A program made the translations under genes and the position numbers. Shown piece by piece: positions 6,196 to 21,183 of a DNA stretch of 36,855 nucleotides (position 1 is its first letter; every line of letters starts with the position of its first letter). Source of the DNA: a virus. Below the pieces are notes generated by a model. That model was given only the letters and a program-made list of their open reading frames with translations. It made no database searches and was not told the origin of the DNA. The stretch spans positions 1-36,855 of the IMG/VR virus record IMGVR_UViG_3300042154_001046; one strand, written 5' to 3'.

Positions 6196-7947
6196 ATGAT
6201 TAACGTCAATCAGATCACTTCGCAACTGGCCCGGATGCCAGACCAAGCGTTGCAGCAGTACGCCATGATGCACAAGAACGACCCGTACACGGTGTCGCTG
6301 GCGCTGTCCGAGTCTAACCGCCGCAAGCAGATGCGCGATGCCGCGCAGGGCCAGCAAGGTATGGCACCGCAGCCCAAAGTGGTCGATCAAGGTATTGCCG
6401 GTATGGCGGCACCGAGCGAAATGAACCCCGCTCAAATGGAAGCGCTGATGCAGCAGTTGGATCGGAAAAAAGAACAGGAATACCGTGAGTTCACTAGGGG
6501 CGCGGCTCCGGCTCCGCAGCCCATGCCAGAAGATGTGGGTATCGGCGCTCTCCCAGCGCCCAACATGCAGGGCATGGCCGGTGGCGGCATCGTGGCTTTT
6601 GGTGGTGGCGGAGACGTGCAGCGGTTTGATGGTGGTGGTGCGGTTGACGCCGCTCGCGCTAGGCGAGACGCCGCGCAGCAAACACTGTACACATACGGGC
6701 TTCGTCAGCGTAGGGATGATCCGCAGGGTTTTATGGCGGCACAAAACGAATTTAACACGGCGCAACAAGCTGTCGCCGCTGCGGAAGCTGCATATGCGGC
6801 AGAAATGTCCGGCACAGGCACCACACGAGCGGCAATGGGGGCGCAAGACGTTGGCGCAACCAAGCAATTTTCAACACTACCGGCAGTAGCTCCCGCAGTA
6901 GTACCCCCCGTAGCTGCTGCGCCGGGTGCTCCAACCCTCCGTTTCCCCCCTACTGCACCCCCCGCTTCCAGTGTTAAAACTCCCCCTGTTGCGGGTCCTC
7001 GTCCGGCTTCTGCTGCCAGTAATAAGCCCCCCGTTGCGCCTGTTGCTCCCGCCGCTCAAGCAGGGCTTGGCGATCTTGCCACAACGTATTCGGACATCCT
7101 TAAAAAGCAGGACTTTAAAGACCCTGCCGAAGCAAGGCTGGGCGCTTTGGAAGCGAAGGAACGGGCTGCTACCGAAGAAAACAAAGCTGCACTTTTGCGC
7201 GATCAAGCAAAATTTGACGACGCGTACAAGGGGCGTGAGAAACGCTTGTCTGACCGCGAATTGGACATTGGCAAGCAGAAAGACACCAACACAGGTTTGG
7301 CGCTTTTGAACGCGGGTCTGTCCATCATGTCCACTCCGGGCGGATTGGCTACGGCTATTGGCAAGGGTGCGCAGGTTGGCACCGCGCAGTTTGCTGCCGG
7401 TTTGGACAAGATTCGTTCCGCACAAGAGCGCTTAGACGATGCCAGAGACAAGATGGAGGACTTGAAGCTCAACCGTGCTGAGATGTCCGCCAAGCAAATC
7501 CGAGATGCCGAAAAAGACATCCGCAATGTGGGCATCGACGCAGAGAAGCGCGGTATTGATGGCCTCCGTATGGCTGCTGATGTGAACCGCAGAACAGCGG
7601 CGGACATGTTTAAGGCTACTGTGGACGTAGGCGTCAACCGCGAACGGATGGAGTCCGCGCAAAACATTGCCGAGATGCAAGAAAAAGGACAAAGCTCACG
7701 GTCTGCTGCGCAGATTGCTGCTACGCTCAACACACCTGACCGGCTTATCTTCAATAAACTGCTCAAAGACAACAATAACGATGCCGTCGCAGCCGCTACT
7801 GCGCTTCAAAAATTAAAAACTGAAAAGTTCAGCGTAACCACTTCTTACGCTGACTATTTGAAATCGTTTGCAGGCAAAGACACTTTGACACCGCCCCTGT
7901 CTTTTGCCAACTATGCGGCACAATTTGGGGCTACCCTGCCGCGTTGA
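6196..7947 (+). CDS. Multi-segment virion-type protein with Pro-rich hinge and coiled coil, unknown function
   Basis: The 583-residue protein has three visible parts. Residues 1-150 contain short helices and a glycine-rich GGGIVAFGGGGD stretch like those in the two preceding gene products. Residues about 228-290 form a Pro/Ala/Val-rich linker. Residues about 300-520 are charged and helical, with heptad-like repeats such as ERLDDARDKMEDLKLNRAEM around a short hydrophobic stretch (TGLALLNAGLSIMSTPGGLATAIGKG). This suits an elongated internal virion component. It starts nine bases after the previous gene. No enzymatic signature is visible. Confidence 0.55.
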   Translation: MINVNQITSQLARMPDQALQQYAMMHKNDPYTVSLALSESNRRKQMRDAAQGQQGMAPQPKVVDQGIAGMAAPSEMNPAQMEALMQQLDRKKEQEYREFTRGAAPAPQPMPEDVGIGALPAPNMQGMAGGGIVAFGGGGDVQRFDGGGAVDAARARRDAAQQTLYTYGLRQRRDDPQGFMAAQNEFNTAQQAVAAAEAAYAAEMSGTGTTRAAMGAQDVGATKQFSTLPAVAPAVVPPVAAAPGAPTLRFPPTAPPASSVKTPPVAGPRPASAASNKPPVAPVAPAAQAGLGDLATTYSDILKKQDFKDPAEARLGALEAKERAATEENKAALLRDQAKFDDAYKGREKRLSDRELDIGKQKDTNTGLALLNAGLSIMSTPGGLATAIGKGAQVGTAQFAAGLDKIRSAQERLDDARDKMEDLKLNRAEMSAKQIRDAEKDIRNVGIDAEKRGIDGLRMAADVNRRTAADMFKATVDVGVNRERMESAQNIAEMQEKGQSSRSAAQIAATLNTPDRLIFNKLLKDNNNDAVAAATALQKLKTEKFSVTTSYADYLKSFAGKDTLTPPLSFANYAAQFGATLPR

Positions 7948-8016: not shown

Positions 8017-11000
8017 ATGGCCGACAAAATCCAACTCCCCAATGGTGCTTTTTTTCCTGTTAAGGAGGGCGAGAGTAAGGAGCAGGCACTGGCCGTAGCC
8101 AAGCAAATGTACCCCGATGCGTTTCAAAAAACGCAATCTGCGGAGCCAAAACAAGACACATCTGGATTCAAAGCGGCAGCATCTGCCGGTGCTACCCGAT
8201 TAGGCGGGGAGTTTGAACTACTCAAAGGCAAGCTCGGCGTAAAGAGCGAAGCCGAAGCGCAGAAAGAATACGAAGCCGCGCAAGCAAAAGCAGCCGCACG
8301 CTTTACCCCCACAGAGAAGGGCTTTACGGAAGCCCCGTTTTTGAAGTTTAAGGAACTTCTTGGCGGCTCTGTTCCGTACGTGGTTGCGCCTGCGGCTGCG
8401 GGTCTTGCTGCTTTGGCTGCTCCTGTTGCCGCTCCGGTTGCTGCGGGTCTTGGTTTGTTGGGCGCAAGCGCGGTGTCCGCAGGTCAGTTCACGGGCTCCA
8501 ACCTTGCCGCGCAGGTAGACACAGGCAAGACGCTGGAAGAAGCCAGCCTTGGCAAAGCGGTCGGCGCAGCAATTCCGCAAGCGCTAATTGACACGGCGGC
8601 TATGGCCCTCTTACCCGGTGTGGGTAAATTGTTTAGTTCTGTTGGTTCCAAACTGACTGCCGAACAAGCCAAAGCAATTGCATCACAGACGCTGGCCCGC
8701 ACCGCTGCGGACTACACCGCAAAAACAGGTCTGGCAATGGGGCGCGAGGGTATTACGGAAGTTGCCCAACAGGTGCTTGAGCGTTTGCAAGCAGGACTTG
8801 CGATTGCAGACCCCGAAGCACGCAAAGAGTACATTGACAGCTTTATTGGTGGCGCGGTATTAGGTGGGACTCTTGCCCCCGTTGGCCGTGCATTTGAGCG
8901 CAGTGGTGCCAAGAGCCAAGCGGCTGCCGAAGATCGCAAAACAAGACTGGCCGCAAAAGCCGAGGAGCAACGTCTTGCCGCTGAAGCCGATGCCAAAGAA
9001 GAGGCGTTTAAAAAGTCCCCTGATTACGCGCTCAAAGTAGCAGATGACTACGCCGCTGCCGAGAAAGCTAAAGCGGATTTAATGGCTCAAAAGCGCAAGA
9101 TTGTTAAGGGATCGCCCACTGAGACTGCGGACAAAGCGTTTAACACGATTATTACCAAGCAGCTTCAAGCGCAAGCGCCGGAGCTTAAAGCCCTTGGTGA
9201 CGAATATGTTCGCCTTGAACCTATTATCAAGCAGGCAATTGAACAAAAACGAATTGAGACGCTGACCCCTGAAGAGTATTCGCTGGAGCAGATGCAGGCT
9301 GATGTTGCCGGTGCTGCCCCCCGCCGCACTCGTGACGAGCGTTTGGCGGCTTTGAATCAGCCAATTCCTGAAGAAGAAACGGCCCCCTCCCCCGACGCTG
9401 CGTACGTTGATGACCGTCTTGCATTGGCAAGAGCACAGGTTACCTTTACGGGGGACATTGAAAAGGATGCTCCCGATTACGTTGACTACCTGATGACCGA
9501 CCCGCGCATGGCCCAGACCATCGTAAACAATCAAACAGCGTTGCCGGGATTTAACCGTAAAGAACAAAACCTTATTCGGGACATATTAAAGGTAAAACTG
9601 GACGCATTTCCGCAACCCCAAGCAGGCACCGCTGCGTCTCAAGCTCGTGTTGGCATTGTTGAAGAAGAAGAGCAAGCTGCCATTGAAGCCCAACGCGCTG
9701 CGGACGAAGCCGAAGCTACCCGCATGGAGACGGAACGCGCTGATGCACAACGCACTGCTCGGCTTGCCCCCGAGGTAGAAGGTATCAAGCGGTTAGGCAA
9801 AGTGCCCGAAGGTGCTTTTAGTTCCGCCAACGCAGACGCTATTTTCCGCGACATGTATCTAAAACAAGCGGACGAGGAGCGCGTAGATCAATTGCTGTCT
9901 ACGTTGCCCATGAGCAGCATCACGACGCCCGGTAAAATTTACGCAGGCTTGGGGTTTGAGACGGCCAGCCGCCGTGACTTACTCACCCGCATTGCAGTGG
10001 CCAAAGCCCACACAGGCACGGAAGACGTAGCGCAGTTGCGCGAAGCGTTGGCCAAACTTGATGCCGAAGCCGGTAGCAAAGCCAACATGAGCGAGCGCCT
10101 GCCCGGTGAAGGCTTGCTGCCCGAAGCAGAAAAGAAAACGATTGCGGCTGAAAAACTTGCCGACCAGCAGAGTCGTACATTGCAAGAGTACATCCAGTTT
10201 TTGGAAGATAAAAAACGCGGCAAGCCGCGTGGCACGCTGCGTCTGGGCCGCAAAGAACGACTCGAAACCGCTGGCGACGAGTTTAAAGCTGCGTACGCCA
10301 AGCAGCATGTCGATGAGGTGAATGCGCGTTTGGATGCGTTTGGTTTGCCCCAACTTACAGAAACAGAAGCCAAGATTGCCACGGGGCGTGTTATGCGCAA
10401 CCTCAACGAGCTTGGTGAGCGTTGGACGGTATCTAGCACAGCAGCGCCGGGATTGGGGACGTTTGCTGCGCCCGTTAAGGCTATGGAAGTTTTGCAAGAG
10501 CAGATTCGCAGCGGAATGTTCAAGACAATCAACGACGCGGCAGAGCGTGCTAACTTGGTGCGGCGCGGGGAAAAAGCCGGAAAGACTCGCACTGCTGAAG
10601 GCGGCGCACGCATTGCCACTCCTGACGAACTCAAGCTCCGCGCCGAGTCCACCGTTCCAAAAAATGACAAGCGCATTGCTACCGAGTTGGCGACGCAGTT
10701 GCGGGATACGCTCGACCAGCGCACATACGCTAGGCCAGAACAACCAGCCCCTAAAGGCAAAGAGGGTTCTAATCGCGCAGACATGGCACTTGCCTTTGGC
10801 GCTCAAGAGCGCGGGATGCGTGCGGATATTGCCAGTCGCGCAGAGTCCCTTGACGAAGACACCAAGGACTTTGTTCGCCTTGCAGCCGACACGTTGGACC
10901 AGATCAAGGATGAATCGCTTATCACGCGCCTTAAAGAAGGTTTGCAAGACGTGGCTGAAGGCCGCAAAGTCAGCGCACTGACGCAGCAAGAACTCAAAGA

Positions 11001-14000
11001 CTTTGTAGCCACTCGTGCCAAGGATGTGCAGAGCACCACGCGCCCCGGCGCTACCCCTGAAGAGTTGCAACGCACCAGCGCCCAGCCGCAAATGTCGCTG
11101 GCTGGTTTTGATGAAGTTGGAGAGCGTACTCAGCGTGCTACACCTAAGAACTTTCAGAAGATGCTTGACTCTAAGGATGTGCAGGGCATGCGTGCAGCTA
11201 TTGCAAAAATGCGCACCGACAACATAGTGGCAATACAAGAAGCCGCACGTAACACCCCCGCAGCGCTGCGTGCAGCACGTACCGCCAAAGCTCGTGTAGC
11301 GTATAACGCGGCACTTGCACAGGAACAGAAAAACTCTTCAGTTGTCAGTAAGCTAAAAGCCGTGTTCACAGAAGAGCGGGCGGGCGCAAGAGAAGTTGTT
11401 GACGCGCTGCAAAATCAACTTGTTGGTTTGCAAAAAAGAATTGACGAAGTTGCCGAAGTTCGTTCGATGTTAGGAAAAGAAACAAACGACATGGCGTTGA
11501 TGATACAAGCGCCAAGTGTTTTGGGGCAGGAAAAAGCACTTCAAAAACGTTTGAAAGAAACGCAGACTGCTTTGGATTTTGCTAAAGATTTGGTTGTTGC
11601 CGTAGACAAACAAAACGCTGCCAGTGCGACGTTGTATGACATGCTCACTAAAGAAGTCACAACTACTACAGAAGTCAGGCGTACTAGAGAAACAGGCGGT
11701 CGGTTCCAAGCGTTTGAAAAACAGCAGCGGCGGGGCGAGCAAGCGGTTGAGGATGCGCGTAAAGAGCTGGATGCTGCTGAAAGGGCCGAACGTGAAGCCG
11801 CCGTAGAAATTAAAAAAACTAAGTCGGTACAGTCGGAGTTTCGTGATACTGCGCAGCGTGCTCGTGAAGGTTTGGACTTGCCCGGACTGCGCAGCACGGT
11901 TGACACAACCAAGATGCGGACGCAAATTAGCAACATCCGCAGCGCTATGGGATCGCTCGATGCTCAGCTCAATGCGGAAACAGACCCCGTTAAGAAAGCA
12001 GCTATCCAAGCAAAGATAGACGCTACGGCGGCTAAGCTAGAAACTGTTTACGCGGACGCCCCGCGTATCACGACGGCTATTGCTGAAAAAGACCAGCTCT
12101 TGTTTGAGCAGACGTTTGATGACGTTCATATTGCTGCGTACGACAAGCAGATGGCCAAGGCACGTATCAAGGGCGGTGAATACGGCCCTGCGCTTTCCAA
12201 CCGCAGGCAAGGCACGGTAGATCGTCCACAAACCGGGGGACGTATTGTACAAACGGGCGAGAAACGTGCAACTCCAGCCAGTGAGATGGCCGGTAGCGCT
12301 CTTGAACGCGTTGCGCAGGAGCGTGCCGCGCTGCGTGAACTGGAAGACCGCGTAGCTTTCTTGCGTGCAAACGGCAAAGACAAAGTTAAGGGTCGGCTGA
12401 CCGACGCTTTTAAGGCGCTGCAAGAAAAAGTTACAAAGCAAAAAGTGGTTGTCAGGGAAACGGAAGAAGCACAGAAAGCAACCGTTGCAGCCGTGCGCGA
12501 CATCAACAAAGAAGAACGTGCCGAAAAAGCGCGGGTTCGTAAGGCAGAGGTAAAAGCTGAAGATGACGGCGTGGTGTTCCGCACAACTACCCGGGGCGGG
12601 CCTACGTTGGCTACCGAAGAAGTGTCCGCAATTGCGGATCGCATCACCGCTGACTGGAAAAACGCTCCTGAAATTGTTGTAGTGGCAACGGAGAACGAAC
12701 TGCCACTGCGTATATTGGGGCTGCTTGTCAAACGCGAAGCCACCAAAAACACCCCCGGTTTGTTTGATATTCCAAGTGGCAAGGTGTACTTGATCGCCAG
12801 CAATTTGCGTAGTGCCCAAGATGTGGTGCTTACAGTTGCACACGAAGCAACGGGCCACTTTGGTTTGCGCGATTTACTTGGCGGCGACTACACGCGCACG
12901 ATGGACAGCCTCTACGCAGGTAATCCGGATGTACGCAAACAAGCCGACGCGAAGCTGGCAAAGGAACCCGCGCTAACTCAGCAAGTTGCTGTGGAAGAAG
13001 TGTTGGCCGACATGGCCGAGACGGGCGGCGTTACGCCCGCCGAGAAAAGCGCATTGCGCCGTATTTACGAGGTTCTGCGTAACTGGTTCCGCACCACCTT
13101 CAAGCTGCCAAACGTCACCGATGCGGAAGTCCAGCAGCTCGTTGCCAATGCCCGCAAGCAGGTTATTGAGGGCGGCAAGAAAGCAGAAGGCGTTGCGCCG
13201 GAAGGCGGGATACTGCGCCGAACTAAGCAGACAGAACCGGCTAACGCGTTGGAATCGCTAGCGCGGGAAATCACAGCACAGCCCCTAACGCTCAAGGAAA
13301 AGCTGGGCAACAACCTTGCACTGCAAACCGAAATGCAAGCAGTGGACATGCGTGCAGGTCTGCGCGAAACGCTCCGCTTTGGAGACGACAGTCTGTTTAC
13401 CCAAGCCATGTACCACGTACGCAAGGCTGAGCAGAAAATGGCGCAGATGTTCACCGTCATGAACAGCGGTCCGCTGGTGGCGTACAAAGATGCCAAAGGG
13501 TTTATAGGGTATCGAAGTTCCAATGAAAACAGCGCTCGTGATGTGTTTGACGCGATTGCTGACATCCCTGTGGACGATCCGCAGCTAAAGACCAATATTG
13601 CACAGGCGTATCTAGTTGCTATCCGCGCAAACAACAAAGGCTTGTCCAAGCTGGATATGGGGGAACTGGGCGTTACACAAGAAGCCCTTGACGCGGCGCT
13701 GGCCGCAGCCGATGCCGACCCTGCTTTGAAAACCGCACTGGAGAACGTGCGCCGCAAGTACAACGCGTACAACAAGGGGCTTATTGAGTTCCTTGCTTCG
13801 ACTGGCCGTATCTCTAAGAAGGCAGCAGCCGACTTGCTGAAAGACGGCGATTACGTTCCGTACTACCGTGTGCGCGACAACGGCATGGCTGAGCTGAACT
13901 TTGGCAACAACGTCACGTTCAACGTGGGCGACATCCGCCGCCAGCCATACCTTGCGGAGCTTAAAGGTGGCCAGACCAAGTTGCTGCCCCTGAACGAAGC

Positions 14001-15873
14001 CATTCAGCAAAACACATTGTTGCTGACGGACATGGCGCTGACCAACAATGCTGCGAAGAGCGTTGCGTACGGCTTGCAAGCGCTGGGCAAAGGCATGGGT
14101 CCCGTCGATCCTATTACAGGTAAACCCGGCAATCTGATGCCGATCAAGACTGGCCCCGGTCCTGCTGACGCACGCACCATCCGTTTCTTCCAAGAGCCTG
14201 ACCCAAGCAACCCGAAGGACACCGGCGAGCGCCATCTGATTGTCAACACCAAAGGCACCGCAGCCGAAGGCATCCCCGCCGAGCTGGTCGTGCAGAGTTT
14301 GGAAGGCGCAAGCCTTGCGCTCCCCGGGTTTTTCAAGCTGGGCGGAGCTGCTGCCGATTTGCTGCGTGCTGGTGTGACCCGCACGCCCTTGTATATTGCC
14401 CGCAAGCTGATCCGTGAGCCTATGGCCGCAGCTTTTACAGGTGGCCTGAACAGCAACGTGTTTTCTGCGGTCTTCAAAGCAGGCGCTGAGTTTGTGCGCA
14501 TGAGCCGTGGTACCAGTGACGCGCAAGCCAAGCTCATTGAGAAGGGTTTAATTCAGTCCAACATCTTTGCAGGCGACATGTCTGACATGAAGAAGATGGC
14601 TCTTCAGCTTGCCAGCGGCAAAGACCAGAGCGCATTTGACAAAGTGCTGGCCGCAGCCGACCGATACGCGATGCGTGCCGATGCTGCCACACTGGCGCTG
14701 GTGCTCAAAAACGCTGAAGAGAACGGGCTGTCAGAAGTTGAAGCTGACATGATGACGATGGAGTCCATGAACTTCTACAAGCGTGGGCTTTCGCCTACGC
14801 TGCAATACGCCAGCCGTTTGATCCCGTTCTTCAACGCGCAGATTCAGGGTCTGAGCGTTCTGATTAAGGCTGCTCGCGGCAATATGCCGTTTGAGGAACA
14901 GCAGCAAATCAAGCGCAAGTTCTTTAACAATGCCATGCTGCTAATGGCTACGGGGCTTGTGTACGCAATGGCGATGGAAGATGACGAGACATTCCGCAAC
15001 GCCCGCCCTCGGGACAAGTACTCCAACTTCTTCTTACCTATTCCGTTCGTGGATGAGCCCATTAAACTGCCCATCCCGTTTGAAGCCGGTTACTTCTTCT
15101 CGCTGGCGGTGGCTGCTGTCGATGGCATGCGTGCCGAGACTGATGGCAAGGCGCAGTTCCAAGCGCTGCGCGACTTGTTCTTGGGGTCTATCCCCGGCTA
15201 CTCGTCTATGGGAATGCCTGCACTTGTTAAGCCTGCTTTTGAAGTATGGGCCGACAAGAACTTTTTGACCGGTGGTTCCGTGGAGCCTCGCCGTTTGCAG
15301 AGTGTCAACACTGAGGAGCGCTACCTTGCGACCACCACAGAGCTGGCCAAGCAGATGAGCAAGGCGGTGCCAATCCTGTCACCCATTCAGATCGAGCACA
15401 TTGTGCGCGGGTATCTGGGCGTGCTGCCCTTGGTGGCTGCGGCGGGAGCCAACAGTTTGTTTGAGGGTGAGAAAAAGGCGGAGAAACCCGAAAGCCGTGC
15501 GTCTGAATTACCGTTGATTGGCACCGCGTTCCAGAAAAAGTACGGTGGTGGCGATGCCGACGTGGTGTACCGCGAAGCGCAAGAAGCCATTGAGGCTCGC
15601 AACACATTTAACAAGATGCTCAGAGAAGGCCGCAGAGAAGACGCCGTTGCTTACCGCGATAAGAACAAGGCCGATCTAGCTATGGCTTCCGCTGCGGGGC
15701 AGTATCGGCAAGTGGTTGGTCGCATCAACGAGGACATCCGCCGTACGCAAGATCGCACTGACCTGACACCACAAGAAAAGCGCATCCGTTTGGATGCGCT
15801 GGATAAGGCAAAACAGGAACGCGCCGATGCGTTTATCCAAATGTCACGCAGAATAGCGGAGCGGGTAGGTTAA
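8017..15873 (+). CDS. Giant polyvalent protein with HExxGH metallopeptidase-like segment and LPD38-like C-terminus
   Basis: At 2618 residues this is by far the largest gene product. Polyvalent proteins are known as large multi-domain proteins delivered into the host with phage or plasmid DNA. After a short conserved opening there are hydrophobic Ala/Gly-rich stretches (about 115-155, 183-212, 277-295) that could insert in a membrane. About 1200 residues of charged, helical sequence follow. A zinc-peptidase-like segment has VAHEATGHFGLR (H1609, E1610, H1614) and, 46 residues on, VEEVLADMAE (E1660, E1661). The C-terminal third includes a region around RLIPFFNAQIQG and further hydrophobic helices that resembles the LPD38 domain. 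The product probably combines DNA ejection with host take-over; the activity is inferred. Confidence 0.75.
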   Translation: MADKIQLPNGAFFPVKEGESKEQALAVAKQMYPDAFQKTQSAEPKQDTSGFKAAASAGATRLGGEFELLKGKLGVKSEAEAQKEYEAAQAKAAARFTPTEKGFTEAPFLKFKELLGGSVPYVVAPAAAGLAALAAPVAAPVAAGLGLLGASAVSAGQFTGSNLAAQVDTGKTLEEASLGKAVGAAIPQALIDTAAMALLPGVGKLFSSVGSKLTAEQAKAIASQTLARTAADYTAKTGLAMGREGITEVAQQVLERLQAGLAIADPEARKEYIDSFIGGAVLGGTLAPVGRAFERSGAKSQAAAEDRKTRLAAKAEEQRLAAEADAKEEAFKKSPDYALKVADDYAAAEKAKADLMAQKRKIVKGSPTETADKAFNTIITKQLQAQAPELKALGDEYVRLEPIIKQAIEQKRIETLTPEEYSLEQMQADVAGAAPRRTRDERLAALNQPIPEEETAPSPDAAYVDDRLALARAQVTFTGDIEKDAPDYVDYLMTDPRMAQTIVNNQTALPGFNRKEQNLIRDILKVKLDAFPQPQAGTAASQARVGIVEEEEQAAIEAQRAADEAEATRMETERADAQRTARLAPEVEGIKRLGKVPEGAFSSANADAIFRDMYLKQADEERVDQLLSTLPMSSITTPGKIYAGLGFETASRRDLLTRIAVAKAHTGTEDVAQLREALAKLDAEAGSKANMSERLPGEGLLPEAEKKTIAAEKLADQQSRTLQEYIQFLEDKKRGKPRGTLRLGRKERLETAGDEFKAAYAKQHVDEVNARLDAFGLPQLTETEAKIATGRVMRNLNELGERWTVSSTAAPGLGTFAAPVKAMEVLQEQIRSGMFKTINDAAERANLVRRGEKAGKTRTAEGGARIATPDELKLRAESTVPKNDKRIATELATQLRDTLDQRTYARPEQPAPKGKEGSNRADMALAFGAQERGMRADIASRAESLDEDTKDFVRLAADTLDQIKDESLITRLKEGLQDVAEGRKVSALTQQELKDFVATRAKDVQSTTRPGATPEELQRTSAQPQMSLAGFDEVGERTQRATPKNFQKMLDSKDVQGMRAAIAKMRTDNIVAIQEAARNTPAALRAARTAKARVAYNAALAQEQKNSSVVSKLKAVFTEERAGAREVVDALQNQLVGLQKRIDEVAEVRSMLGKETNDMALMIQAPSVLGQEKALQKRLKETQTALDFAKDLVVAVDKQNAASATLYDMLTKEVTTTTEVRRTRETGGRFQAFEKQQRRGEQAVEDARKELDAAERAEREAAVEIKKTKSVQSEFRDTAQRAREGLDLPGLRSTVDTTKMRTQISNIRSAMGSLDAQLNAETDPVKKAAIQAKIDATAAKLETVYADAPRITTAIAEKDQLLFEQTFDDVHIAAYDKQMAKARIKGGEYGPALSNRRQGTVDRPQTGGRIVQTGEKRATPASEMAGSALERVAQERAALRELEDRVAFLRANGKDKVKGRLTDAFKALQEKVTKQKVVVRETEEAQKATVAAVRDINKEERAEKARVRKAEVKAEDDGVVFRTTTRGGPTLATEEVSAIADRITADWKNAPEIVVVATENELPLRILGLLVKREATKNTPGLFDIPSGKVYLIASNLRSAQDVVLTVAHEATGHFGLRDLLGGDYTRTMDSLYAGNPDVRKQADAKLAKEPALTQQVAVEEVLADMAETGGVTPAEKSALRRIYEVLRNWFRTTFKLPNVTDAEVQQLVANARKQVIEGGKKAEGVAPEGGILRRTKQTEPANALESLAREITAQPLTLKEKLGNNLALQTEMQAVDMRAGLRETLRFGDDSLFTQAMYHVRKAEQKMAQMFTVMNSGPLVAYKDAKGFIGYRSSNENSARDVFDAIADIPVDDPQLKTNIAQAYLVAIRANNKGLSKLDMGELGVTQEALDAALAAADADPALKTALENVRRKYNAYNKGLIEFLASTGRISKKAAADLLKDGDYVPYYRVRDNGMAELNFGNNVTFNVGDIRRQPYLAELKGGQTKLLPLNEAIQQNTLLLTDMALTNNAAKSVAYGLQALGKGMGPVDPITGKPGNLMPIKTGPGPADARTIRFFQEPDPSNPKDTGERHLIVNTKGTAAEGIPAELVVQSLEGASLALPGFFKLGGAAADLLRAGVTRTPLYIARKLIREPMAAAFTGGLNSNVFSAVFKAGAEFVRMSRGTSDAQAKLIEKGLIQSNIFAGDMSDMKKMALQLASGKDQSAFDKVLAAADRYAMRADAATLALVLKNAEENGLSEVEADMMTMESMNFYKRGLSPTLQYASRLIPFFNAQIQGLSVLIKAARGNMPFEEQQQIKRKFFNNAMLLMATGLVYAMAMEDDETFRNARPRDKYSNFFLPIPFVDEPIKLPIPFEAGYFFSLAVAAVDGMRAETDGKAQFQALRDLFLGSIPGYSSMGMPALVKPAFEVWADKNFLTGGSVEPRRLQSVNTEERYLATTTELAKQMSKAVPILSPIQIEHIVRGYLGVLPLVAAAGANSLFEGEKKAEKPESRASELPLIGTAFQKKYGGGDADVVYREAQEAIEARNTFNKMLREGRREDAVAYRDKNKADLAMASAAGQYRQVVGRINEDIRRTQDRTDLTPQEKRIRLDALDKAKQERADAFIQMSRRIAERVG

Positions 15874-18981: not shown

Positions 18982-19176
18982 TTACGCGAACAGGTCGAGT
19001 TGCTTTTCGTCGCGGACGGGGTATTCGTTGATAACGGCGAGGCGGCAGAAGCGGGAGTACAACTCAAACTGAACGTCGAGCGGGAAGCCCTCTGCTGTCC
19101 AGATGTTGTCGCAGTGCAAGATCAACTCGCGGTTGCTCAGGCTTGAAGGTTGTAGTGTTGACATATTTTTTTCCAT
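18982..19176 (-). CDS. Small hypothetical protein overlapping the HTH gene
   Basis: This 64-residue soluble protein contains LSNRELILHCDNIW and ends EKQLDLFA; no domain is recognised. It overlaps the end of the helix-turn-helix gene by 40 bases in the -1 frame. Its first ATG (19176) has GAGG only one base upstream, and the next ATG (19164) has no clear ribosome-binding site. Expression therefore probably depends on coupling to the gene before it, or on slippage at the A7 run described in the findings. It ends 15 bases before the PrimPol gene. Confidence 0.55.
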   Translation of the reverse strand: MEKNMSTLQPSSLSNRELILHCDNIWTAEGFPLDVQFELYSRFCRLAVINEYPVRDEKQLDLFA

Positions 19177-19415
19177 GCCTCGTCGGCAGAGCGTGAAGTT
19201 TGAAGGAATTTGAGCAGCGTTTCTACGCGGTGCTCGTACGCAGGAAAGATGTCTCCGCCTGCGAACCAGTTGTATGCGGTCTGGCGTGTAACGCCTAGCG
19301 CTTTGGAGATGCGAACGACAGAGAAGTCATGGTGAACAGCCCAACGTCCGAGCTGATTGCCCGGAGTCTTCGGCGCACGCATAACCATGTCGATTGTTTT
19401 TTGTGAGTAGGCCAT
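19137..19415 (-). CDS. Helix-turn-helix DNA-binding protein, putative regulator
   Basis: In this 92-residue protein, residues 32-51 (SVVRISKALGVTRQTAYNWF) form a classic helix-turn-helix of the Cro/transposase-like type. The flanking helices would complete a small DNA-binding domain. The ATG lacks an obvious ribosome-binding site (CCTTTAAGACCCTT precedes it). It lies directly after intergenic element A, one of the two non-coding stretches sharing identical ends. A role in controlling the PrimPol operon, perhaps by acting on these elements, is a reasonable inference. The coding end contains seven A residues (19166-19172). Confidence 0.7.
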   Translation of the reverse strand: MAYSQKTIDMVMRAPKTPGNQLGRWAVHHDFSVVRISKALGVTRQTAYNWFAGGDIFPAYEHRVETLLKFLQTSRSADEAWKKICQHYNLQA

Positions 19416-19425
19416 AAGGGTCTTA

Positions 19426-19524
19426 AAGGTGGGGGTACTCGCTGCGTCTGTGCCTTACTGGTTATTGCCACAATTCCCTGTTACGGGTCAGAGGCATCAC
19501 AGCATCCGCTTTCCCCCCGAAACT
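19426..19524 (-). promoter_or_regulatory. Intergenic element A: conserved-ended leader upstream of the HTH gene
   Basis: Read leftwards, this 99-base stretch starts AGTTTCGGGGGGAA and ends AGTACCCCCACCTT. Both 14-base ends are identical in element B (20123-20209), while most of the middle differs. The G-run and C-run could pair and close a stem about 80 bases apart. The element starts a few bases after one gene's stop and ends 10 bases before the HTH start codon. It could be a structured leader RNA, an operator pair or a recombination remnant; nothing seen decides among these. Confidence 0.55.
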
Positions 19525-19527
19525 TAC

Positions 19528-19812
19528 TTAGGTCTTGGCAGGGAACAGTTGGGCCAGCACAGCCTCATACTGGGTCTTGCGGCGCTCCAGCAGCGCTACC
19601 TTGTCCAGCTTGTCCAACAGGCTCGGGAAGTTGATGTCTTCCTTGGCGCACTGCTCTTGGATGTCTGCCTCAAGGCGAATGAGTTCATCGTCCAGCTTGG
19701 CCATCTCTAGCTCAGCTTGGCTGCGAACCTTGCGTGCTCGGATGGGTGCCAGTGCTTCGGACAGTTTCTCCTTGGACATGGCGATGATTTCTGCGAATGG
19801 TTTGAGTTTCAT
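19528..19812 (-). CDS. Coiled-coil hypothetical protein
   Basis: This 94-residue, highly charged helical protein has heptad-like residues throughout (for example MAKLDDELIRLEADIQEQ and LLDKLDKVALLERRKTQYEAVL). No catalytic or metal motif is seen. It starts in an ATGA overlap with the preceding gene, so the two are coupled. The opposite strand has an open frame of similar size, but the start overlap and ribosome-binding site support the leftward reading. It may be an oligomeric accessory protein; function unknown. Confidence 0.6.
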   Translation of the reverse strand: MKLKPFAEIIAMSKEKLSEALAPIRARKVRSQAELEMAKLDDELIRLEADIQEQCAKEDINFPSLLDKLDKVALLERRKTQYEAVLAQLFPAKT

Positions 19813-20108
19813 AATGTTTCTCCTGTGAGTAAAAGTTTGTTGTCTGGTTTGTTGAGGAATGCCAACGGGCTTTTTGGATCGTGTTTTGGTTTTTGGCTCT
19901 GTTCCTGACTCATCTGACCGAAAAGTGCTTGGCCTCCCTGTATGTGCCCGAAGCCTTGTTGCACGTACATCTGCTGCTGCTGTATGAGTCGGCGGTAGTC
20001 TTCCTCTTTCATGTGGCGAAGCTGCATCTCACGCTCGTGCTCGTACCTCTCTCGCTCAAGATATACGTCACGGTTGGCATCGTAAAGCTGGTTCGTTGTT
20101 ACTGCCAT
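19809..20108 (-). CDS. Charged, Gln-rich hypothetical protein
   Basis: This 99-residue protein has a helical Glu/Arg-rich half (DVYLERERYEHEREMQLRHM) and a Gln/Gly-rich middle (QQQQMYVQQGFGHIQGGQ), ending in a basic/Pro linker. There is no known domain. AAGGAG lies eight bases before the ATG, just after intergenic element B. It is coupled by ATGA to the coiled-coil gene that follows. The pair may form a complex, since both look like extended helices, but that is inference. Confidence 0.6.
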   Translation of the reverse strand: MAVTTNQLYDANRDVYLERERYEHEREMQLRHMKEEDYRRLIQQQQMYVQQGFGHIQGGQALFGQMSQEQSQKPKHDPKSPLAFLNKPDNKLLLTGETL

Positions 20109-20122
20109 GTCTTTCTCCTTGT

Positions 20123-20209
20123 AAGGTGGGGGTACTGACGGTGCTCTCCTTGTGACGGCACCAGTTTATTGGTAGAGAGCGAGGCGACTCCCGCGTTCCC
20201 CCCGAAACT
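20123..20209 (-). promoter_or_regulatory. Intergenic element B: conserved-ended leader downstream of the SSB-like gene
   Basis: This is the second copy of the conserved-ended element (87 bases). Read leftwards it has AGTTTCGGGGGGAA at the start and AGTACCCCCACCTT at the end, 14 of 14 bases each matching element A. Inside, GGTGC and GCACC could form a hairpin whose loop holds AAGGAGA, and ACCA/TGGT could form another. The SSB-like gene stops two bases before it, and the 99-residue gene's ribosome-binding site follows it directly. A structured RNA or transcriptional control element is likely; its type is unknown. Confidence 0.55.
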
Positions 20210-20211
20210 AA

Positions 20212-21183
20212 TTATTCGTCATCCCAGTCGGCAACGACATCGGCCAGCGCTTTCTTGCCGGGCACAGCCGTTGGCTTTGCCGCTGCTGCCTTCTTCACGA
20301 CTGGCTCTTCGTCTTCCTCGGGCGCTTCGACCACTGGGGCTGGCTTGGCCTTGGCTTTAGCCTTGGGGGCTGGTGCGGGGGCTTCGTCTTCCTCGGGCTC
20401 TTCGACCACTGGTGCGGCCTTGGCCTTCGGCGCTGCACCCTTGAGCGCATCAGCAGGCTTGCCCATGTCCATACCAGTGGAGTCCATCGTGATGGCTTTC
20501 TTGGCTTCGGCGGTGTCGCCCTGCTTGGTGGCTTCAGCGAACTCGTCATCAGTCAACCAGCGCATGGCCTTGAAGAACAGCTTGGGGGACTCGCTGGCAG
20601 TGTCGAACTTCATGCGGGTCACAACAGTGCTCGGGTCAACGCCTTGGGCCACGAGCCAGCGTGCGTACGCTTGCAGTGGGCGGTTGTCGCCTTCGTCCTT
20701 ACCGAAGATCGAGGTGGCTGGCAGGGATAACTGCATCACATCGCCTTCGATGTTGTTGGCCAAGACGACTGCCAAGCGCTGCTGGTAACGGCAAGCGCGG
20801 GTATTGCCAGTACCGGAACCGGCCACGTTCTGTGGGCAGGCTGCGCAGGTGTCGGACTGTTTGTTCTTGCTATTGGAGTCTGGTGTGTCGCCATCGTTGG
20901 ACTGACAGTCAGGTTTGGCGGCGGTTGCGTCCTTGTCGTACTTGGCGGCGTAGAACACACGGGCCACTTTCGGTGCGGCCTTGACGATCACCACATCGAG
21001 GAAGCGCTCATCGACTGCTGCGATTTCTTTGCCGTCAGAGATCAGACGGAACACGCCACCTTTGATCGACACGCGTTTGCCGCTGGCACCACCACCCGCA
21101 AGGGCTTTGGCAATGTCAGACATCTCGGCCTTGCGTGCGAAGGCGGGTACTTGGGCGGGGTTAAACAGAGCTACATTACTCAT
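20212..21183 (-). CDS. Putative single-stranded DNA-binding protein with zinc motif and acidic tail
   Basis: In this 323-residue protein, an N-terminal region with beta-like segments (about 38-80, 133-215) is interrupted by a cysteine motif (C93, C113, C116, C131) suggesting bound zinc. The last third is a disordered Ala/Pro/Lys/Glu linker in which APVVEEPEEDE-type units recur, ending in the acidic tip DWDDE. A basic/Pro linker with an acidic, aromatic-containing tip is typical of bacterial and phage SSBs (T7 gp2.5, T4 gp32), where it recruits replication partners. Its position among polymerase, helicase and nuclease genes fits. No OB-fold can be proved by eye. Confidence 0.6.
   Translation of the reverse strand: MSNVALFNPAQVPAFARKAEMSDIAKALAGGGASGKRVSIKGGVFRLISDGKEIAAVDERFLDVVIVKAAPKVARVFYAAKYDKDATAAKPDCQSNDGDTPDSNSKNKQSDTCAACPQNVAGSGTGNTRACRYQQRLAVVLANNIEGDVMQLSLPATSIFGKDEGDNRPLQAYARWLVAQGVDPSTVVTRMKFDTASESPKLFFKAMRWLTDDEFAEATKQGDTAEAKKAITMDSTGMDMGKPADALKGAAPKAKAAPVVEEPEEDEAPAPAPKAKAKAKPAPVVEAPEEDEEPVVKKAAAAKPTAVPGKKALADVVADWDDE

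Follow-up and report, generated by a model that had tools for sequence, protein, structure and literature searches.

A phage-specific structured RNA consists of a constant collar (a closing stem, a GAA/AGUA internal loop and a 3′ ACC), usually an adaptor, and an exchangeable tip. It is located after a stop codon in a replication and recombination operon and is present nearly always once per genome. Two elements, A and B, lie in a viral DNA of 36,855 nt (IMG/VR record IMGVR_UViG_3300042154_001046, positions 1 to 36,855), the whole of which is termed the window here. Read on the sense strand, a stem P1 of 5–6 bp leads into the GAA/AGUA internal loop, usually into the adaptor CGGAUGC...GCAGCG, and into the apical domain, with ACC following the stem. 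Apical domains measure 4–100 nt and whole elements about 40–140 nt.

A (99 nt) and B (87 nt) are both encoded on the minus (gene) strand, starting with AGTTTCGGGGGGAA and finishing with AGTACCCCCACCTT. Either end is identical in 14 of 14 bases, and no other exact occurrence was found in the window. These coordinates and matches confirm the initial annotation, as does the placement of both elements in gaps of a packed operon, among the four genes listed in Table 1. Stem, loop-E ends and 3′ ACC are common to A and B; A contains the conserved adaptor, while the interior of B differs. B-type elements have also been identified in L373, L434 and L435, immediately ahead of the same helix-turn-helix gene, which makes B a true alternative of A. 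Two relatives at the A site (L004 and L009) carry an apical domain unrelated to that of A in the same position. L093 has A's apical domain with one change between unrelated flanks. Folded as single sequences, A and B yielded nothing informative (z about −0.4 to −1).

The helix-turn-helix gene starts 11 nt beyond A and has at least 586 relatives in viral contigs. Its position directly after the element, part of the initial annotation, holds in the window and its phage lineage, to which this neighbor is confined, whereas downstream genes vary among the other lineages. The 323-aa upstream protein gave no Pfam match; only its acidic tail and its position make it a candidate ssDNA-binding protein. 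Further genes in the window encode a primase/helicase, a helicase and a DNA polymerase. An open reading frame of 2618 aa spans 8017–15873 on the plus strand. In the related locus L009, the corresponding stretch (about 2083–2177) has a single element, whose left flank corresponds to that of B and whose right flank to that of A, as if recombined, with both intervening genes missing.

Table 1. Elements A and B with their parts and the adjoining genes (positions in the window).
Feature	Position	Strand	Basis or remark
Upstream gene, 323 aa, acidic C-terminus ADWDDE	20212..21183	-	PHROG 27714, family without an assigned function; stop codon just 5′ of B
Element B, B type: P1, loop-E ends and ACC of A, other interior	20123..20209	-	Sequence; 15.6 bits on the family model
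B interior / apical domain, 59 nt	20137..20195	-	Sequence
99-aa gene between B and A	19809..20108	-	Missing in L009, where one element is kept
94-aa gene between B and A	19528..19812	-	Missing in L009
Element A, complete A-type element of collar and apical domain	19426..19524	-	Family model R1, 65.3 bits, E 5.6e-18
A stem P1, 5′ arm GGGGG	19514..19518	-	Partner 19431–19435; P1 covaries family-wide
A GAA, 5′ half of the loop-E-like internal loop	19511..19513	-	Invariant in alignment A1; loop-E by consensus only
A adaptor, 5′ strand AGCGGAUGC	19502..19510	-	Near-invariant
A exchangeable apical domain, 56 nt	19446..19501	-	Comparison with relatives L004, L009, L093
A adaptor, 3′ strand GCAGCG	19440..19445	-	Near-invariant
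A AGUA, 3′ half of the loop-E-like internal loop	19436..19439	-	Invariant in alignment A1
A stem P1, 3′ arm CCCCC	19431..19435	-	P1 covariation
A ACC immediately 3′ of P1	19428..19430	-	Commonest trinucleotide after P1 (25 of 55 distinct P1 helices)
Helix-turn-helix gene, 92 aa, next after A	19137..19415	-	Weak HTH Pfam matches

The exact two-ended pattern of A and B is present in 14 further viral contigs. Scans for an end together with its adaptor bases, performed for each half separately, yielded at least 119 stretches each. Scans demanding another stem sequence added 32 and at least 120 more, and a generic two-ended scan returned at least 120 stretches, many of them new. The exact copies, the adaptor-extended matches and the variant-stem copies together show that the resemblance of A and B is not due to chance. 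A-type copies have a common sequence beyond the ends (UCGGGGGGAAAGCGGAUGC...GCAGCGAGUACCCCCACC). The family collected so far, for which a stem of at least 4 bp was required, comprises at least 337 phage contig loci with one element each and 55 distinct stems. Copies in related phages, anticipated in the initial annotation, are thus abundant. Among 50 whole records, 48 had one match, one had two and one had none; in a second set, 25 records had one match each. The suggestion of a pair of protein-binding sites fails on this count, as nearly all genomes carry a single element.

Carriers are mostly freshwater phages. No named or cultured phage was found to carry the element; only the metagenome-derived Manatee Spring genomes MW202462, MW202879 and MW202710 have it. 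On inspection, matches in Pseudomonas phage 73 and Agrobacterium phage Rivra were put down to chance, and plasmids gave chance matches only. In bacterial genomes, a pattern scan hit only two contigs, each of them from a metagenome-assembled betaproteobacterium. When 399 genomes of the same betaproteobacterial order were sampled, one further genome had a match, amid phage-type genes. In the bacterial genome G115 of that order, a collar element with the stem CGGC:GCCG (L468; contig 74, 10780–10849) adjoins phage-type genes and probably belongs to a prophage. L261 (IMG record 2974597119, about 7423–7478), which bears an isolate-like identifier, has exact adaptor strands and lacks P1 pairing. Covariance models of Rfam 15 matched none of eight loci with elements at E ≤ 1. 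Within the window region, an E-value of up to 10 admitted two chance matches only, both outside the elements.

Pairing of the G-run with the C-run, proposed initially to close a stem around a variable core, is borne out by strong covariation. In 108 diverse sequences, P1 reached 0.484, in comparison to 0.113 for shuffled sequences and at most 0.185 for slid controls, and both-sided changes occurred at six of the six stem pairs tested. The same sequences are invariant at G11, A12 and A13 and at A37, G38, T39 and A40 (numbering of the first sequence); since they were collected via fixed core bases and filtered for innermost P1 pairing, this invariance and a part of the pairing percentage arise by construction. 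Broader scans left P1 unfixed, and after removal of the pairing filter the stem pairs were still almost all standard. GAA opposite AGUA next to helices corresponds to the consensus of the bulged-G, loop-E or sarcin-ricin module, and the internal loop is loop-E-like by this consensus only. The module is frequently linked to protein binding (PMC7247131). RNAalifold indicated additional CG:CG and UGC:GCA pairs inside the element.

GNRA and UNCG tetraloops were observed 30 times on the sense strand versus once on the antisense strand (p 3e-8), which argues that the element acts as RNA. Inside P1, 17 G-U combinations were counted versus five A-C. Strand bias and covariation together point to an RNA and not to a promoter-type explanation. 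For 172 of 213 elements, a sense stop codon precedes P1 by at most 15 nt; the antisense strand gave 15 such cases, and chance would give about ten. Orientation was derived from this stop-codon test, long open frames alone being too noisy. The upstream genes often encode ssDNA-binding or annealing proteins of five unrelated Pfam families, namely SSB (PF00436), Enc34 ssDNA-binding (PF10991), DUF669, RecT (PF03837) and Pam3 gp34. In some phages, a terminator instead of a gene is located 3′ of the element. The flanks UUUC and ACC outside P1 accompany the element. Of the structured leader RNA considered initially, the structured RNA stands, while "leader" is imprecise for an intercistronic element that follows closely after a stop codon and sometimes precedes a terminator.

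The apical domains are highly diverse. A total of 227 distinct tips formed 97 similarity groups, about 90 families, with the largest group over-merged. Flanks of 500 nt were at least 90% identical on both sides in 43 element pairs, of which 17 have unrelated tips, e.g. L082 and L114 (flanks 99% and 99%) or L175 and L426 (98% and 100%). Another 112 pairs with unrelated flanks have a tip in common, and the same tip has been seen on different P1 stems. The exchanged unit is the apical domain, and a mobile-element remnant as originally stated is not supported. Two tip families possess their own covarying helices together with invariant unpaired bases: CAUG...ANNGA (0.505 vs 0.138) and GUGGGUUCAUCCAC (0.289 vs 0.115). 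The GGACGA-type tip was found on the adaptor and also, adaptor-less, directly on the loop-E stem. A third, adaptor-less interior type places GYYGUGCAA-hairpin-UUGCGGACGAGCRGYU directly on the loop-E stem (L471, L474, L475, L481, L494, L503 and others). The shortest tips are single tetraloops. In folding energy (mean z −0.59, control −0.26), the tips surpass shuffled sequences only slightly, so stability is not the conserved property.

About half a dozen tip families resemble parts of tRNAs. A T-arm-like hairpin occurs in 17 of 205 tips, with 1.2 expected. ARAGORN made a call in one of 21 sources, a tRNA-Arg(UCG) within the element of L185. Tips similar to a tRNA body, devoid of the acceptor stem, are present in L136, L146, L159, L160 and L185 (TGTAGCTTAG...GGATCCAACCA) and in L029, L057, L097, L099, L124 and L137. 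Identity with tRNA genes is not supported for the elements generally, the few tRNA-like tips being the exception. Most tips have no recognizable likeness to any host RNA.

The slot before the helix-turn-helix gene has several alternative occupants. Among 80 such loci, it was filled by elements of the A or the B type, by short loop-E variants, by plain UUCG hairpins or by a different RNA of about 110–140 nt. The latter (L390, L395, L408, L424 at about 2870–2990, L442, L448, L455) has its own closing stem (CGCUGGG:CCCAGCG, CGCUAGG:CCUAGCG or GGGGGG:CCCCCC) and the conserved sequence GCGGUCGCAUUGCGUUGGGCGG...CUCGUUA...CAACGACUGCGUUUCC, and it had no match in Rfam. Where a hairpin or the other RNA occupied the slot, the records tested contained no collar element elsewhere, except for a mini loop-E variant in L437. 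These relatives, together with L009 and its one element, indicate that the element is optional and the slot an accessory site. In L460, ahead of the helix-turn-helix gene, a tip similar to that of L388 runs straight from a GGGGGUGUAG:CUACACCCCC stem, and the loop-E collar is absent.

Hairpins of the type GGGGGC-UUCG-GCCCCC are inserted between the Shine-Dalgarno sequence and the AUG in L396, L397, L412, L420, L425, L428 and others. Looping out the hairpin leaves exactly 7 nt of spacing in 10 of 18 such cases in the helix-turn-helix lineage. An A-type element can be situated there as well, in the order AAGGAG-UUUC-element-ACCCAAACAAC-AUG. The order of a 5′ Shine-Dalgarno sequence and a 3′ AUG holds for 13 of 32 A-type elements in this slot and not for most other lineages, in which the Shine-Dalgarno sequence is 3′ of the element (82 cases) or none is recognized. 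Split ribosome-binding sites bridged by RNA structure are established for the T4 genes 25 and 38 (PMC3014915). The T4 hairpins are simple, whereas some collar elements have the Shine-Dalgarno sequence downstream or precede a terminator. By analogy with these genes, the split sites and the 7-nt spacing make a local role likely in the helix-turn-helix lineage, at least for the hairpin, and the position in this lineage suggests a role in translation initiation.

The main rival to a functional tip extends such a role to a local (cis) mRNA structure in general. The collar hairpin would insulate or stabilize the mRNA or join a split ribosome-binding site, and the tip, required only to fold compactly, would be free to drift and to be swapped. 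The UUCG hairpins with their 7-nt spacing, the A-type elements in the same position and the T4 precedent (PMC3014915) are in its favor. However, it does not account for the lineages with a downstream or no recognized Shine-Dalgarno sequence or with a terminator next to the element, and the covariation within tip families, the invariant unpaired bases and the reuse of tips on different stems exceed the needs of compact folding. It is regarded as a serious explanation, though rather doubtful on balance. A selfish mobile RNA or DNA hairpin, inserting in the tips of existing intergenic hairpins, exchanged by recombination and useless to the phage, is considered unlikely. It would be consistent with a P1 that varies among phages while the loop-E bases and the adaptor are near-invariant, with the simple hairpins in the same slot of relatives and with tips moving among unrelated flanks. 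The single copy per genome, the UUUC and ACC flanks that move along from outside P1, and the tight constraint on sense orientation and position count against it; no associated recombinase was noticed within the window.

A site acting at the DNA level, i.e. a recombination junction, a single-strand origin or a protein-binding hairpin on strand separation, would fit the nearby ssDNA-binding and recombination genes and the cassette-like exchange of tips; STAXI, suggested to act as single-stranded DNA, has a similar neighborhood (PMC2864571). The 30:1 tetraloop ratio, the excess of G-U over A-C and the constant orientation relative to the genes render this very unlikely. Exchangeable specificity domains and a single copy would also be expected of an antisense immunity RNA such as c4 of P1/P7 or CI of P4, with the tip as the immunity specificity. 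Complementarity of tips to their own phage (matches of at least 11 nt) was observed at 6.6% and expected at 5.6%; this lack of excess argues against antisense control of self, the Rfam c4 model was unmatched, and such a function is scarcely credible.

A collar presenting an exchangeable functional domain is favored, since a purely local role leaves unexplained the elements of other lineages, the tip motifs and the travel of tips between phages. Taken whole, the reading of exchangeable, probably host-interacting RNA domains on a constant collar is held tentatively, at somewhat less than even confidence, with the function inferred. The RNA would be made within the operon mRNA and possibly processed out of it. 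The ACC present after 25 of the 55 distinct P1 helices is reminiscent of how a tRNA acceptor arm ends and may hint at processing. In an RNase P substrate, an unpaired RCC would follow the helix and cleavage would take place 5′ of it. The collar may keep the RNA folded and stable, or a constant partner may bind it. The apical domain would carry the activity, for instance as an RNA module that inhibits a host factor or acts as its decoy, and tRNA-like tips could serve as decoys of tRNA-handling factors. Modules may be swapped by recombination in the short conserved collar and adaptor sequences, perhaps because hosts differ or defend themselves. A simple UUCG hairpin suffices in the slot of some relatives, which counts against the favored reading: the element is either dispensable, or its basic role is local and structural. 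The slight gain in tip stability over shuffled sequences, the lack of likeness to host RNAs in most tips and the position in the helix-turn-helix lineage count against it too. Conceivable, with confidence well below even, is that phages share a pool of small RNA effector domains, numerous and unrelated to one another, some of them tRNA-body mimics, exchanged as cassettes on one universal collar, an RNA counterpart of the protein anti-defense repertoire.

To our knowledge, a shared RNA collar with interchangeable tips occurs in no known system, STAXI, GOLLD, ROOL and c4 included. Phage proteins are well known for the exchange of whole functional modules at a single slot of the genome, but we know of no case for RNA domains on a shared RNA scaffold. 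The family is absent from Rfam; it may overlap with a catalogue of candidate phage structured RNAs reportedly presented by Fremin and colleagues in 2023. Integron attC sites have conserved ends and a variable middle, and their cassettes are exchanged by IntI. Collar elements are similar in the conserved ends, the variable middle and the cassette-like exchange. They differ in their core sequences, in being sense-strand RNA according to the tetraloop bias, in their single copy and in swapping their own tip instead of a gene cassette; no involvement of an integrase was seen. The c4 antisense RNA (RF01695) is likewise a small phage RNA within an operon transcript, but pairs with its own transcript, a complementarity not found in the collar family, which also had no Rfam match. 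STAXI is likewise structured and, in phages and plasmids, lies near genes for ssDNA-binding proteins and recombination; its UUCG tetraloops are frequent (PMC2864571). It is a pseudoknot in two or three repeats, whereas the collar family forms one hairpin with a loop-E-like collar and a swappable tip. No tandem repeated pseudoknots were found in the family (single hairpin, one copy per genome; Rfam unmatched), which does not support membership in STAXI. GOLLD and ROOL are structured phage RNAs of unassigned function; GOLLD combines a constant with a less conserved region and sometimes contains tRNAs in a linker region (PMC12286853). Both are far larger (hundreds of nt) and form nanocages, in contrast to collar elements of about 40–140 nt with tips swapped between near-identical phages. 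Identity with either was rejected, as their Rfam models were unmatched and the elements are too short.

If the tips act on host factors, the family would offer a so far unused collection of natural RNA inhibitors or decoys that bring along their own folding scaffold, and would show that fast-evolving function resides in the unannotated gaps of phage operons. Even if the role is local, the collar elements constitute a large RNA family of clear consensus that has gone unrecorded, usable at once in phage annotation and in work on RNA motifs.
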